A DNA stretch of 64,000 nt. It comes from Burkholderiales bacterium. Lineage in GTDB: Bacteria; Pseudomonadota; Gammaproteobacteria; Burkholderiales; JAEUOS01. The position numbers and the translations under genes were made by a program. Under the pieces are notes generated by a model, which saw nothing but the letters and a program-made list of their open reading frames with translations, did not search any database and was not told where the DNA came from. The stretch lies in NCBI GenBank assembly GCA_016790635.1, contig JAEUOR010000074.1, forward strand, positions 186,001-250,000, in the 5' to 3' direction. Below, piece by piece: positions 33,984 to 40,202 of the stretch (within the stretch, counting starts at the first letter, position 1; each line of letters begins with the position of its first letter).

Positions 33984-35180
33984 ATGGACAGCCGCCCGCC
34001 AGTCAACGACTGGACGATCGATTTCGATCACTTCGATCCCCGATGGACGGAGAACCCCTATCCGATCTGGGATGAACTGCGACAGAAGTGCCCGGTCGCG
34101 ACCTCCCAACGCTTCCAGGACGGCGCCTACTTCCCGTCGACCTACGCCGACGTGCATGCGATCGCGTACGACAGCGAGCACTTTTCCTCGCGCCGCGTGA
34201 TCGTGCGCGAGCAGAAGCTGCCGCTGATCCCCGGCCCGCCGATCACCTCTGACCCGCCCGAGCACACCCCGGCGAGGAAACTGCTCCTGCCGGCGTTCTC
34301 GCCCAAGGAGATCGCCAAATTGGAGCCGCAGGCGCGCGCGGTGTGCAATTCGCTGATCGACGCCATCGGTGATCGCAGCGAATGCGACGCGGCCACCGAG
34401 TACTCGCAGCACATCCCGGTGCGCCTGATCGCGCACATGCTGGGCGTCGACCAGAGCAATGGCGACCTGTTTCGCGACTGGATTTACCGCTCGCTGATCG
34501 AAGGCGTGCGCAACCCGGCCGCGGCGATGGCCGCGATGCACGAACAGAATGCATTCTTCAAGCAGCAGGTCGAACTGCGCCGTGCCAACCCGGGCGACGA
34601 CCTGGTCTCCTTCCTGATCAAGGCCGAGTTCAACGGGGCGCCGCTCACCGAACCGCACATCCTGGGCACGCTGCGCCTGCTGCTCATCGCCGGCATCGAC
34701 ACGACCTGGAGCGGCATCGGCGCCTCGCTCTGGCACCTGGCCACGCATCCCGAGGATCGCCGGCGCCTGGTGGCCGACCCGTCCCTCATCCCCACGGCGA
34801 TCGAGGAGTTCCTGCGCGCCTATTCGCCGGTGACCATGGCACGCGAGGTGGTCAAGGAAACCACGCTCTCCGGCTGCCCGTTCAAGCCCCTGGGCCAGGT
34901 GCTGTTGTCTTTCCCGGCGGCCAATCGCGATCCGGCGCGCTTTGCCGATGCCGACCGTGTCTTGATCGACCGCGCCGAGAATCCGCACGCGGCCTTCGGG
35001 CTGGGGCGGCATCGCTGCCTGGGCTCCAACCTGGCGCGCCTGGAAATGACCGTCGCGGTCGAGGAGTGGTTGAAGCGCTTTCCGGACTTCGAGGAGACGC
35101 GCGGCAAGAAGACCACATGGTCGGAAGGCACGGTGCGCGGCCCGCGCTCGCTGCCGGTGACCATTCTCAAGCGCGCGTAG
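33984..35180 (+). CDS. Cytochrome P450
   Basis: 398 aa, a soluble bacterial class I P450. Seen: I-helix AGIDTT (236-241), K-helix ExxR in EEFLR (275-278), and heme loop FGLGRHRCLG with the axial Cys at 345. It takes electrons from the adjoining ferredoxin. The subfamily and substrate cannot be told from the sequence alone; the neighbouring sulfatase and mobA suggest an aromatic or sterol-like compound, which is inference. Confidence 0.93.
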   Translation: MDSRPPVNDWTIDFDHFDPRWTENPYPIWDELRQKCPVATSQRFQDGAYFPSTYADVHAIAYDSEHFSSRRVIVREQKLPLIPGPPITSDPPEHTPARKLLLPAFSPKEIAKLEPQARAVCNSLIDAIGDRSECDAATEYSQHIPVRLIAHMLGVDQSNGDLFRDWIYRSLIEGVRNPAAAMAAMHEQNAFFKQQVELRRANPGDDLVSFLIKAEFNGAPLTEPHILGTLRLLLIAGIDTTWSGIGASLWHLATHPEDRRRLVADPSLIPTAIEEFLRAYSPVTMAREVVKETTLSGCPFKPLGQVLLSFPAANRDPARFADADRVLIDRAENPHAAFGLGRHRCLGSNLARLEMTVAVEEWLKRFPDFEETRGKKTTWSEGTVRGPRSLPVTILKRA

Positions 35181-35347
35181 CGAGCGTGCGCGCGGCGAAG
35201 AGACCGCCGTCGCCCTGCGCGGTGCGCCTTGCATCTTTGACGGACCCTGACACGGGCTGCCGCATACGGCTGGCGCTTGCCTCCGGAAGGGATTGATGCC
35301 CTTGCGGCCCGCGCCTCAACCATCCTTGCATGAATGGAGATGAACCC

Positions 35348-37609
35348 ATGACCGAACCTCGCTTCGGCGGCAGCATCGGGCGCACCGTCGCCGAGTCCAC
35401 GCCCTGGTGGCCCGTCGAGCCGCGCCCCCCCTCGGGCGCACCCAATGTCGTGGTGGTGGTCTTCGACGACGTGGGTTTCGCGCAGTTCGCCAATTTCGGC
35501 TCGACGCTTGCCACGCCCAACCTGGACCGCCTGGCCGCCGGCGGCCTGCGCTTCACCAATTTCCACACCACGGCCTTGTGTTCGCCCACGCGCGCCTGCA
35601 TGCTGACCGGGCGCAACCACCACGCGGTGGGCATGCGCGCGATCTCCAATTTCGACACCGGCTTTCCCAACATGCGCGGGGCGATTCCCAAGTCGGCCGC
35701 GACCTTGGCCGAGATCCTGCGCGCGACCGGCTACGGCACCTACATGGTCGGCAAGTGGCATCTGGCGCCCATGCACGAGACCGGGCCCGCCGGGCCCTTC
35801 CACAACTGGCCGCTGGCGCGCGGCTTCGACCGCTTCTACGGATTCCTGCAAGGCGAGACCGACCAGTTCCGACCCGAACTGGTGCATGACCAGCACTACA
35901 TCGACCCGCCCGCCACCCCGGAGGCGGGCTATCACGTCACCGAAGACCTGGTTGACCACGCCATCGGTTACGCGCGCGACCACGTTTCGGCTGCGCCGGA
36001 CCGTCCGTTCTTCACCTACCTGGCCTTCGGCGCCTGCCACGCGCCGCACCAGGCGCCGCAGGCCTACCTGGAAAAGTACCGCGGCCGTTTCGATGAAGGC
36101 TGGGATGTGTTCCGCGAACGCTGGTTCGCGCGCCAGAAGGAAATCGGCGTGGTGCCGCCGGACACGACCCTGCCGCCGCGCAACCCGGGAGTGAAGCCAT
36201 GGGTCGAACTCAGCGACGACGAGCGCGCCTTCGCCGCTCGCCTGATGGAAGCCTTCGCTGCGTTCCTGGAACACACCGATCACCACCTGGGCCGCTACAT
36301 CGATGCCCTCGCCGCGCTGGGACAGCTGGACAACACGCTCTTCATCGCCATGTCGGACAACGGCGCCAGCCAGGAAGGCGGGCCGACCGGGGTGCTCGAC
36401 GAGATGCGCTATTTCAACGGGCTTGCCGAAGACGTGGCCGCGGCCGTGAAGCGCCTGGACACCATCGGCGGGCCGGACAGCCATACCAACTATCCGTGGG
36501 GCTGGGCCATGGCGGGCAACACGCCGCTCAAGCGCTACAAGCAGAACACCCATGCCGGCGGCGTGCGTGACCCCTTCATCGTGCACTGGCCGGCGCGCAT
36601 CAGGGACCGAGGCGGCATCCGCCGCCAGTTCCATCACGTCTCCGACATCACGCCCACGCTCCTGGAGCTGATCGGCGTCGAAGCGCCCGCGCAGGTGGCC
36701 GGCGTCACCCAGCAGCCGATGACCGGCACCTCGATGGCCTACGCATTCGCCGACGACGCGGCCGGCGTGCCGACCAAAAAGCAGACCCAGTACTTCGAGA
36801 TGTTCGGCCACCGCGGCATCTGGCACGCCGGCTGGAAGGCAGTGTGCTACCACCGGCCCGATGCCGACTATGACACCGAGACCTGGGAGCTCTATCACGC
36901 CGATGCCGACGCCTCGGAAGCGCATGACCTGGCGGCGCAACACCCCGAGCGCCTGCGCTCCTTGATCGACCTGTGGTGGGTCGAGGCCGGCCGCAACGGC
37001 GTGCTGCCGCTCGACGACCGGCGTGGCGGCGCGCTCTTCAAGACCGCGCAGTTTCGCGGCAACACCGCGCGGCGCACACGCTTCGTCTACCACCCGCCGC
37101 TGTCACGCCACTCGGCGGACGTTGCGCCGCCTACCGGTAACCGACCCTTTGTGGTCACCGCCGAATGCACGCTGACCGGCAGCAACGGCGCCATCGTCGC
37201 GCGCGGCAGTGCCAACGGCGGCTACGTGCTCTTTGTCAAGGACGGTCACCTGGTGTTCGACTACAACTTCTTTCACACCCATACCCAGGTGCGCTCCACG
37301 CGCCCCCTGCCCAAGGGGCCGTGCACGGCCGGCGTGCGGGTGGAGCGCGAAGGCCGCAGCGGCACCGCGATCCTCATGATCGACGGGCAGGATTGCGGCA
37401 GCGTGGCGATTCCGGAAATGGCGGTCATGGTCTCCTCGACCGGCATGGACATCGGCCGCTCGATCGCGCCGGTGTGCCACGACTACGCGCCGCCGTTCGT
37501 CTTCGAGGGCGTACTCGGTCGCGTCACCTTCGAAGTGGCGGCCTCGCGCGCGCCGCAGGCCAGGAAGGAAGCGCTCGCCACGGAGCGCGTCACCCAGGGG
37601 CTGCAGTAA
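35348..37609 (+). CDS. Type I sulfatase (arylsulfatase), formylglycine-dependent
   Basis: 753 aa. The maturation motif CSPTR (Cys 78) for formylglycine, the metal aspartates in VVVFDDVGFAQF (about 40-41), and MSDNGAS are seen, with a long C-terminal domain ending in a beta-rich module, as in large AtsA-type sulfatases. No signal peptide is visible. I take the ATG at 35348, 7 bases after a GGAGA, over an in-frame ATG at 35330. It hydrolyses sulfate esters. It is 167 bases downstream of the P450 gene. Confidence 0.92.
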   Translation: MTEPRFGGSIGRTVAESTPWWPVEPRPPSGAPNVVVVVFDDVGFAQFANFGSTLATPNLDRLAAGGLRFTNFHTTALCSPTRACMLTGRNHHAVGMRAISNFDTGFPNMRGAIPKSAATLAEILRATGYGTYMVGKWHLAPMHETGPAGPFHNWPLARGFDRFYGFLQGETDQFRPELVHDQHYIDPPATPEAGYHVTEDLVDHAIGYARDHVSAAPDRPFFTYLAFGACHAPHQAPQAYLEKYRGRFDEGWDVFRERWFARQKEIGVVPPDTTLPPRNPGVKPWVELSDDERAFAARLMEAFAAFLEHTDHHLGRYIDALAALGQLDNTLFIAMSDNGASQEGGPTGVLDEMRYFNGLAEDVAAAVKRLDTIGGPDSHTNYPWGWAMAGNTPLKRYKQNTHAGGVRDPFIVHWPARIRDRGGIRRQFHHVSDITPTLLELIGVEAPAQVAGVTQQPMTGTSMAYAFADDAAGVPTKKQTQYFEMFGHRGIWHAGWKAVCYHRPDADYDTETWELYHADADASEAHDLAAQHPERLRSLIDLWWVEAGRNGVLPLDDRRGGALFKTAQFRGNTARRTRFVYHPPLSRHSADVAPPTGNRPFVVTAECTLTGSNGAIVARGSANGGYVLFVKDGHLVFDYNFFHTHTQVRSTRPLPKGPCTAGVRVEREGRSGTAILMIDGQDCGSVAIPEMAVMVSSTGMDIGRSIAPVCHDYAPPFVFEGVLGRVTFEVAASRAPQARKEALATERVTQGLQ

Positions 37610-37656
37610 GCCGCCGTCGCCGCGAAGCAGCTTGCAGCCGAGCGCGCTTGCGCAAT

Positions 37657-38133
37657 CTATCGCAGGCCTTGGCTGCGAGGTGTTGAGGGCGCCACCCTTG
37701 AGTCCGGACGCAAGTCCAGGCCCAAAGCCTTGTGCGCCAGTTTCAAAAACGCCTTGCGCTCCACGCGTGACAACTCACCGAGGATGTCCGCCTGCAGCGC
37801 CTCCACCACGGGACGGCTGGCGGCCAGCATTTTCCTGCCTGTGGAGGTCAGGGTCAGTCGCCGCGCGCGGCGATCCATTTCGCTCACGGCGCGCTCCACC
37901 AACCCCTTGCTTTCCAGCCTTTCGATGACCCCGCCGATGGTGGCACGGTCGAAGCCAATGGTGGCGGCCAGGCCGGCCTGATCGATACCGGGCGTGTCGG
38001 CGATGGCGTCAAGCGCCGCGAACTGCACCGAGGTCATGTCGAAGCCGGCGGCCTGGGTCCTGGCCTGGAAGACCTGGGTCGATTGCTGATGCAGCCGCCG
38101 GATCAGGTGTCCGGCCATTTCAGTCCTGTCCAT
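37657..38133 (-). CDS. mobR: MarR-family regulator, MobR-like
   Basis: 158 aa from the ATG at 38133. A winged helix-turn-helix (TSVQFAALDAIADTPGIDQAGLAATIGFDRATI) and DRRARRLTLTSTG wing are typical. It is divergent from a close relative of mobA. In Comamonas testosteroni the MarR protein MobR represses mobA and is released by 3-hydroxybenzoate, so the same role is likely here. A 12-base palindrome lies between the promoters of the two genes. Confidence 0.82.
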   Translation of the reverse strand: MDRTEMAGHLIRRLHQQSTQVFQARTQAAGFDMTSVQFAALDAIADTPGIDQAGLAATIGFDRATIGGVIERLESKGLVERAVSEMDRRARRLTLTSTGRKMLAASRPVVEALQADILGELSRVERKAFLKLAHKALGLDLRPDSRVAPSTPRSQGLR

Positions 38134-38190
38134 TCGGTCTCCCCGACGAACGCCGCGCTGCCGGCCAACCGGGCGTCGATTCCGGCACGC

Positions 38191-38219
38191 TTGACAATTA
38201 TAGTATGTATACATATCAT
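38191..38219 (+). promoter_or_regulatory. Sigma-70 promoter of mobA
   Basis: -35 TTGACA at 38191-38196, a 17-base spacer, and -10 TATCAT at 38214-38219. It is about 60 bases before the mobA start. The operator palindrome fills the spacer and touches the -10, so a bound repressor would block it. Confidence 0.8.
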
Positions 38220-38225
38220 AAGCAA
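38197..38225 (-). promoter_or_regulatory. Sigma-70 promoter of mobR, overlapping that of mobA
   Basis: On the minus strand: -35 TTGCTT (38225-38220), a 17-base spacer and -10 TATAAT (38202-38197). It is about 65 bases before the mobR start and overlaps the mobA promoter almost completely. Confidence 0.75.
38204..38215. promoter_or_regulatory. 12-base palindrome, probable MobR operator
   Basis: TATGTATACATA, perfectly symmetric. It lies in the spacer of both divergent promoters, so one bound MarR dimer could repress both genes at once. Function is inferred from position and from the known MobR-mobA system. Confidence 0.75.
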
Positions 38226-38279
38226 GCTTACTTAATCGCTCATCACCAGCCCGCCTCGCTGCGGGCAAGAGGAAACGTC

Positions 38280-40202
38280 ATGCAATACCACGTGAACGGC
38301 TTCAACCCGGGCGACCCGGACGTCTTTCCCGCGGCGCCCAACCCCTGGCGTTCAGGCGATGCACTGCCGCAGACGGTGGACGTGCTCATCGCCGGCTCCG
38401 GGCCGGCCGGCCTGTGCCTCGCGGCTCAGCTGGCGGGCGTGCCGCAGATCCGCACCATGCTGGTCGAGCCCAAGCTGGGGCCGATGGAAAAGGGCCAGGC
38501 CGACGGCATCAGCGTGCGCTCGATGGAGATGTTCCAGGCTTTCGGGTTCGGCGAGAAGGTGATGCGCGAGGCGGTCTGGATCAACGAAACCACGTTCTGG
38601 GCGGCTGGCGCTCAGGGCTCCCTCGATCGCGTCGCGCGCGTGCAGGACGTGCCCGACGGCATTTCAGAAATGCCGCATGTATTGCTGAACCAGGCTCGTG
38701 TGCACGACATGTTCCTGGACATCATGCGCCGCGCGCCCTCGCGCCTGGTGCCGGACCATGGGCTCAAGGTCATTGACCTGGCGATCGACCCCGCCGCGGC
38801 AGAGTACCCGGTGACCGTCACGCTCGAACACACCGCACCGGGTCGCGAAGGCCGGACGAGCACGCTGCGCGCCAACTACGTGATCGGCTGTGACGGCGCG
38901 CGCTCGAACGTGCGACGTGCGATCGGCGGCGAACTGCACGGCGACGCGGCGCACCAGGCCTGGGGCGTGATGGACGTGCTGGCCGTCACCGACTTCCCGG
39001 ACTGGCGCATGAAGTCATTCGTGCGCTCCAGGGACGACGGCATCCTGATGGTGCTGCCGCGCGAAGGCGGTCATCTGGTGCGCCTGTATGTCGAACTTGA
39101 CGCCCTGGGCGAGGACGAACGTGTCGCCGAGCGCGGCATGGGAGCGCAAGACATCATCGCCCAGGCGCAGCGCATCTTCCGGCCTTTTTCACTCGACGTG
39201 AAGGACGTGGTGTGGTGGTCGATCTACGAGATCGGCCATCGCCTCACCGACAAGTTCGACGATGTGCCCGAGGCGGAGGTGGCAACGCGCGCCCCGCGCG
39301 TCATGCTGGCCGGTGATGCCTGCCACACCCACAGTCCCAAGGCCGGGCAGGGCATGAACGTGTCGATGGGCGACACCTTCAACCTGGGCTGGAAACTGAT
39401 ATCGGTGTTGACCGGGCGCGCCGATTCGGCGCTCTTGCACACGTACTCCGGCGAGCGGCGCGCCGCTGCCAAGGGCCTGGTCGAGTTCGACCACAAGTGG
39501 GCGCGCGTGGTCGGAGGCAGCGCGGGTGAAGACATGGAGTTCGACCCCGCCACGGCCGGCCTGCCGGTGGTGGCGCGCGCCTTCATCAACAACCTGCCGT
39601 TCACCTGCGGGCTCACCATCCAGTACGAGCCCGGCCGGCTGACCGGTGCCGCCACCCACCAGCACCTGGCCACGGGCTTCGACATCGGCAAGCGCTTCCA
39701 TTCCGCACCGGTGGTGCGCCTGGCCGACGCCAAGCCCATGCATCTGGGACATTGCATCGATGCCGATGCGCGCTTCCGGCTATTCATCTTCGCACCCGCA
39801 GGCGATGCCGGCGGCGCAGGCGGCGCGGTCGCGGCGTTGTGCGACTGGCTGGAGCGTGACCCTGCTTCGCCGCGCGTGCGCCACACCGCACCGGGGGAAG
39901 ATCCGGATGCGGTGATCGACACGCGCGCGGTGTTCCAGCAGTCGTTTCGCGACCTCGACTACGCCGCCATGCCTTCGTTGCTGCGTCCGCGTGTGGGACG
40001 CCATGGCCTTTGCGACTATGAGAAGGTGTTTTGCGCCGACCTGAAAAGCGGCAACGACATCTTCGCCATGCGCGGCATCGACCGCACGGCCGGCTGCGTG
40101 GTCGTCGTGCGTCCTGATCAGTACGTGGGGCACATCCTGCCGCTCGACGCGCGCGCGGCGTTGTCCGGTTATTTCGCCGGCATTCTGCGCAAGCGGTCCT
40201 GA
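38280..40202 (+). CDS. mobA: 3-hydroxybenzoate 4-monooxygenase (FAD)
   Basis: 640 aa, matching the 639-residue Comamonas MobA whose structure is known; the start MQYHVNGFNPGDPD and several stretches (GPMEKGQADGI, RSMEMF, HSPKAGQGMN) resemble it as I remember it. Seen: FAD motif AGSGPAGL, GD motif MLAGDACHTHSPKAGQG and the thioredoxin-like C-terminal domain of phenol hydroxylases. It turns 3-hydroxybenzoate to protocatechuate with NADPH and oxygen. A GAGGAAA ribosome site precedes the ATG at 38280. Other aromatic hydroxylase substrates are possible. Confidence 0.85.
   Translation: MQYHVNGFNPGDPDVFPAAPNPWRSGDALPQTVDVLIAGSGPAGLCLAAQLAGVPQIRTMLVEPKLGPMEKGQADGISVRSMEMFQAFGFGEKVMREAVWINETTFWAAGAQGSLDRVARVQDVPDGISEMPHVLLNQARVHDMFLDIMRRAPSRLVPDHGLKVIDLAIDPAAAEYPVTVTLEHTAPGREGRTSTLRANYVIGCDGARSNVRRAIGGELHGDAAHQAWGVMDVLAVTDFPDWRMKSFVRSRDDGILMVLPREGGHLVRLYVELDALGEDERVAERGMGAQDIIAQAQRIFRPFSLDVKDVVWWSIYEIGHRLTDKFDDVPEAEVATRAPRVMLAGDACHTHSPKAGQGMNVSMGDTFNLGWKLISVLTGRADSALLHTYSGERRAAAKGLVEFDHKWARVVGGSAGEDMEFDPATAGLPVVARAFINNLPFTCGLTIQYEPGRLTGAATHQHLATGFDIGKRFHSAPVVRLADAKPMHLGHCIDADARFRLFIFAPAGDAGGAGGAVAALCDWLERDPASPRVRHTAPGEDPDAVIDTRAVFQQSFRDLDYAAMPSLLRPRVGRHGLCDYEKVFCADLKSGNDIFAMRGIDRTAGCVVVVRPDQYVGHILPLDARAALSGYFAGILRKRS

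Follow-up and report, generated by a model that had tools for sequence, protein, structure and literature searches.

The divergent genes mobR and mobA in the window (the whole 64,000-nucleotide stretch of Burkholderiales DNA analyzed here) are separated by a 146-bp gap and share a common operator between them, and the landing site of the regulator looks double rather than single. An earlier note on this DNA had proposed that one MarR dimer on one palindrome shuts off both genes; the palindrome was retained in our analysis but the case for a single site was weakened, as the conserved operator comprises four half-sites, which pair up into two palindromes with a 15-bp spacing. A description with one dimer and one palindrome probably falls short, and a better model would be two MobR dimers bound on nearly opposite faces of the DNA. 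We assign a probability of roughly 0.6 to this MarR-type switch as a whole, the two dimers included, and consider its core, i.e. that MobR represses both genes here and is relieved by 3-hydroxybenzoate, very likely. The divergent pair, the MarR-family regulator, the hydroxylase, and the overlapping promoters with their shared operator together lead to the prediction that mobA is induced by 3-hydroxybenzoate and that mobR is autoregulated. The earlier biology probably holds in broad terms, subject to two corrections, a double operator (probably) and a weaker mobR promoter, and the type of switch is already known.

The assignment of the regulator to the MarR family and its divergent orientation were borne out by the intergenic gap and by Pfam matches above cut-off (MarR_2, PF12802, E 1.7e-13; MarR, PF01047, 6.6e-11), which indicate the presence of a MarR winged-helix domain. 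When compared to the named regulators of NCBIfam, MobR fell below the cut-off of every one. Among solved structures, HosA was the nearest (2.5e-20), with PcaV (3.6e-12) and CouR (9.9e-11) also among the best matches. HosA ligands are aromatic acids. For PcaV and CouR, the ligands are given as protocatechuate and p-coumaroyl-CoA, respectively, in the account of PMC4737184. The ligands and target genes of all three proteins differ from those of MobR, and no orthologue is found among them. Orthologues of MobR align from the inner ATG (38133-38131). Two longer reading frames, one for mobR from a TTG at 38268 and one for mobA from an ATG at 38205, were rejected, as each would run through the promoters and the orthologues align from the inner starts.

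The best solved relative of MobA is the Comamonas 3-hydroxybenzoate hydroxylase 2dkh, matched over the whole length (residues 1-637, E 9.2e-226), and this homology supports identifying the gene product as a 3-hydroxybenzoate hydroxylase, with the activity and the position of hydroxylation being predicted. The protein comprises FAD_binding_3 and Phe_hydrox_dim domains, and NCBIfam offers a subfamily-level name only (PRK08294, phenol 2-monooxygenase). Residues D75, H133, K245 and Y270 align with D75, H135, K247 and Y271 of 2dkh, which we take to have a role at the substrate. Elsewhere in the genome, contig C37 encodes adjacent protocatechuate 3,4-dioxygenase-like proteins (beta and alpha), of which the alpha model scored above its cut-off (129.5 vs 126.25) and the beta model, although the best match, below it (229.5 vs 296.4); LigB-family genes are also present. 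The dioxygenase-like pair may enable the host to use protocatechuate, the predicted MobA product. By eye, the neighbors of the pair at 33984-37609 look like a cytochrome P450 and an arylsulfatase.

Table 1. Coordinates of the mobR-mobA control region and its flanking genes in the window.
Feature	Position	Strand	Basis or remark
mobR, MarR-family regulator, 158 aa, ATG 38133-38131	37657..38133	-	Pfam and orthologue alignment
mobR-mobA intergenic control region, 146 bp	38134..38279	.	Sequence
PmobA, TTGACA-17-TATCAT (TTGACA 38191-38196, TATCAT 38214-38219)	38191..38219	+	Predicted start near 38226
PmobR, TTGCTT-17-TATAAT (TTGCTT 38225-38220, TATAAT 38202-38197)	38197..38225	-	Predicted start near 38190
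Composite operator, 29 bp, GTATGTATACATATCATAAGCAAGCTTAC, four alternating 7-bp half-sites	38203..38231	.	Conservation, dyad and spacing analysis
Operator site 1, perfect 12-bp palindrome TATGTATACATA	38204..38215	.	Sequence, conservation
Operator site 2, palindrome TAAGCAAGCTTA	38219..38230	.	Conservation, spacing
mobA, FAD-dependent 3-hydroxybenzoate hydroxylase, 640 aa	38280..40202	+	Homology

The two overlapping promoters with 17-base spacers (38191-38225) and the 12-base palindrome (38204-38215) described in the earlier note were confirmed in the sequence. PmobA has 11 of 12 consensus bases and is the sole sigma-70-like match in 37500-38900, where 0.1 would be expected from shuffled sequences. 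PmobR has a perfect -10 hexamer and a -35 hexamer with only 3 of 6 consensus bases, and is absent from the scan list because the scan rule needs four of six. Of 2000 dinucleotide-shuffled versions of the gap, 0.05% contained a forward promoter as good, 5% a reverse one as good, and none contained both; relative to chance, the mobA promoter clearly stands out in the window sequence, and the mobR promoter, judged on that sequence alone, is borderline. Across 26 orthologous regions, the best mobA promoter occupied the same position relative to the operator in 24 (including L015, which scores 7/12), whereas the best mobR candidate was at the position seen in the window in only six. Two promoters had been claimed; the one for mobA stands, and the one for mobR is far weaker, with a position that is less well conserved. 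Given its weak -35 hexamer and its variable position, PmobR rests mainly on the perfect -10 hexamer and a conserved TA beside the operator. The proposal that the promoters share one operator region held up, the operator being conserved and overlapping the promoter of the divergent target gene.

Site 1 lies within the spacers of both promoters and shares with the PmobA -10 hexamer the first two bases of that hexamer, and site 2 covers the PmobR -35 hexamer and the predicted mobA start. A perfect palindrome of at least 12 bases arose in 5% of 3000 shuffles of the gap, and the 12-bp palindrome is borderline in the single sequence and secure only through conservation. Relatives were collected by several routes: a genome scan yielded 21 mobR relatives, a family search for mobA was positive in 81 of 399 genomes, an order-wide MobR search gave matches in only 4 of the 399, and a plasmid search for MobR returned 37 records, all with less than 60% identity. 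From the 85 mobA matches listed, 30 were used as loci and 50 further mobA starts were added, and five that were fragments or fell short of the mobA start were left out (G723, G502, G444, and two G415 pieces). The close set consisted of 29 orthologous regions (MobA above 74% identity, plus L012), which gave 26 distinct regions including the window; duplicates (L024, L038, L039) and redundant copies of the loci of the window and of G002 (L001, L025, L026, L027, L029, L034) were removed, and L016 and L022, which had no mobA match, were dropped.

The regions were aligned without gaps on the 29-bp block, with the consensus RTATGYA TRCATAY c ATATGYA AGCATAY. As the rows were placed by their best match to the consensus, conservation inside the block is partly built in, but the contrast with the outside is still large, with a mean of 1.36 bits per column for the operator, 0.76 for the 16 bases on the mobA -35 side, and 0.22 and 0.26 outside. 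The median pairwise identity was likewise 72% in the operator versus 31% in the flanks, and eight columns were invariant in all 26 regions, among them those of the G/C pair in either palindrome. Out of 84 possible dyad centers (mean symmetry 0.29), the best three were 14.0 (0.84), 6.5 (0.77) and 21.5 (0.65), corresponding to the center of the block and the two flanking palindromes; site 2 is thus less symmetric than site 1 in the close orthologues. Bases 20 and 23 of site 2 covary (C-G 8, T-A 7, C-A 3, T-G 0, in the 18 of 26 rows with these letters; Fisher 0.004, with no correction for phylogeny or for the testing of four pairs). The 18/25 pair is A-T in the window in place of the T-A commoner elsewhere, so that the symmetry of site 2 is retained. 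A divergent mobR was found beside the site in 25 of the 26 close loci, the exception being L040, a short contig that shows none.

The spacing of the two palindromes was analyzed by scoring self-complementarity over 28 spacings in a motif-free manner, leaving out L021, L064, L070, L078 and loci in whose retrieved stretch no divergent mobR could be detected, and keeping L040. The 26 close regions gave 15 bp as the first of the 28 spacings (z 12.2), and 13 remote loci, whose MobR is 37-48% identical, independently gave the same optimum (z 6.1). An intermediate group of 13 loci (G2, MobR 55-65%) had no 15-bp peak (z 2.9), its best spacing being 31 bp (z 4.4). An offset scan ranked -15 first in the remote group; in the close group, -15 (z 3.3) and +15 (z 3.1) came behind several other offsets. 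Among the 13 remote loci, there are four (L062, L072, L074, L079) for which the pairs chosen by the script resemble GC-rich chance matches. The remote locus L095 has the same 29-bp layout as the window (GTATGTATACATAC T ATATGTGAGCATAT) in a 205-bp gap between divergent mobR and mobA genes, its MobR being 41% identical to that of the window, and no TTGACA was seen by eye at the corresponding place. A possible third palindrome, ATGCATGCAT, was noticed by eye in this gap, 15 bp further upstream of site 1. A double operator in a fixed 15-bp register may be common to MobR regulators, with two dimers on nearly opposite faces over overlapping divergent promoters uniting repression, autoregulation and promoter competition in one compact switch, and with the register having outlasted both the divergence of MobR to about 40% identity and that of the half-sites; we consider the odds of this generalization to be even.

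Site 1 is the longest perfect palindrome of the gap, and in seven 29-mers from the 13 remote loci (six registers found by script, that of L072 set by eye) its mean symmetry was 5.4 of 7, compared to 3.6 for the center and 4.0 for site 2. Together with L016, in which only one good palindrome is found, this favors a model where one MobR dimer on site 1 alone represses both promoters and site 2 is kept for other reasons. We regard this as unlikely, as the G and C of site 2 are invariant throughout the close set, the 15-bp spacing recurs in the remote group, and site 2 lies nearly entirely outside the mobA promoter hexamers. Less probable still is a single dimer centered at 38217 on the odd 15-bp dyad TACATAT c ATAAGCA, which would contact the inner half-sites, 10 bp apart, with the outer half-sites tuning affinity. 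Although this central dyad is the most symmetric one in the close orthologues, it is imperfect in the window and is surpassed in symmetry by site 1 in the seven 29-mers from remote loci, and its 8/20 pair displayed no significant covariation (Fisher 0.17).

In the preferred model, two MobR dimers on the 29-bp operator would cover both promoter spacers, the mobA -10 hexamer and start, and the mobR -35 hexamer, so that bound MobR would shut off mobA and limit mobR. Binding of 3-hydroxybenzoate would release MobR and allow mobA to be transcribed from its strong promoter, and MobA would then convert 3-hydroxybenzoate into protocatechuate. As both promoters lie on the same DNA, polymerase would be expected to use one at a time, and the stronger mobA promoter should therefore win upon induction.

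On the simplest reading, the switch in the window would follow the published MobR/mobA precedent from Comamonas testosteroni KH122-3s, i.e. repression and release by 3-hydroxybenzoate (Hiromoto et al. 2006, J Mol Biol 364:863; Yoshida et al. 2007, BBRC 362:275; cited in PMC6191541 and PMC4737184); the Comamonas MobR is described in PMC6191541 as a repressor with 3-hydroxybenzoate as ligand. Enzyme and regulator are homologous in the two systems, and L095, with a MobA fragment sharing 97% identity with the KH122-3s MobA, provides a close relative with divergent genes and the 29-bp layout. The systems differ in that MobA of the window is about 55-62% identical (2dkh fragments, G095) and MobR 41%, as judged via L095. 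An analogue of the arrangement alone is the MarR-family protein Rv2887 from Mycobacterium tuberculosis, for which PMC5526998 describes two dimers on nearly opposite faces of 30-bp DNA with 15 bp each; its site is GC-rich, in contrast to the operator of the window, and its targets differ. The mhbR-mhbT region of Burkholderia xenovorans LB400 is similar in its divergent predicted sigma-70 promoters and MarR-type palindrome but belongs to the gentisate route and has another regulator, and the genome is given in the same account as lacking mobA (PMC3572157).

Biologically, the locus is an ordinary catabolic switch. A precise operator model for MobR-type 3-hydroxybenzoate sensors could be useful in biosensors and in finding further MobR targets; in a reporter trimmed down to this 12-bp palindrome of site 1, half of the conserved operator would be missing.

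The exact 12-mer TATGTATACATA occurs at one place in the 5.57-Mb genome (approximately 90% complete), and a genome search for further MobR targets using TATGTATACATA and RTATGYATRCATAY with one mismatch allowed revealed no second exact operator. Single-mismatch matches, possibly due to chance, were found on contigs C11 (upstream of a carA-like gene, by eye), C36 and C62. In Maritimibacter (L016), no mobA match was found within the 6.4-kb locus, and the mobR-like gene has its own near-perfect site ATATGTATGCATAT (2961-2974; 6/7 pairs), centered 33 bp upstream of mobR, from which it follows that the operator site accompanies mobR. The similarity of the recognition-helix regions (assigned by eye) of MobR from the window (FDRATIGGVIERLE) and from L095 (FDKSTIGGVIDRLE) likewise supports that the operator belongs to MobR. 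Cores of the TGTATACA type are used by other regulator families too, and C36 has a TATGTATACATG site flanked by unrelated divergent genes, but a different regulator (e.g. GntR-type) binding TGTATACA-like sites here while MobR acts elsewhere is very improbable, as nearly every close locus has a divergent mobR next to the site, and the site stays with mobR in L016 even without mobA. The TATGTATACATG site on C36 (24713-24724; L033 2514-2525), which has one mismatch and is followed by TTGACT and the near-palindrome GTGTATGCACAT, is probably the operator of another regulator; the AT-rich gap in which it is situated is flanked by a fumarylacetoacetate-hydrolase-like gene on one side and glyoxalase/dioxygenase-like genes on the other (gene names assigned by eye).
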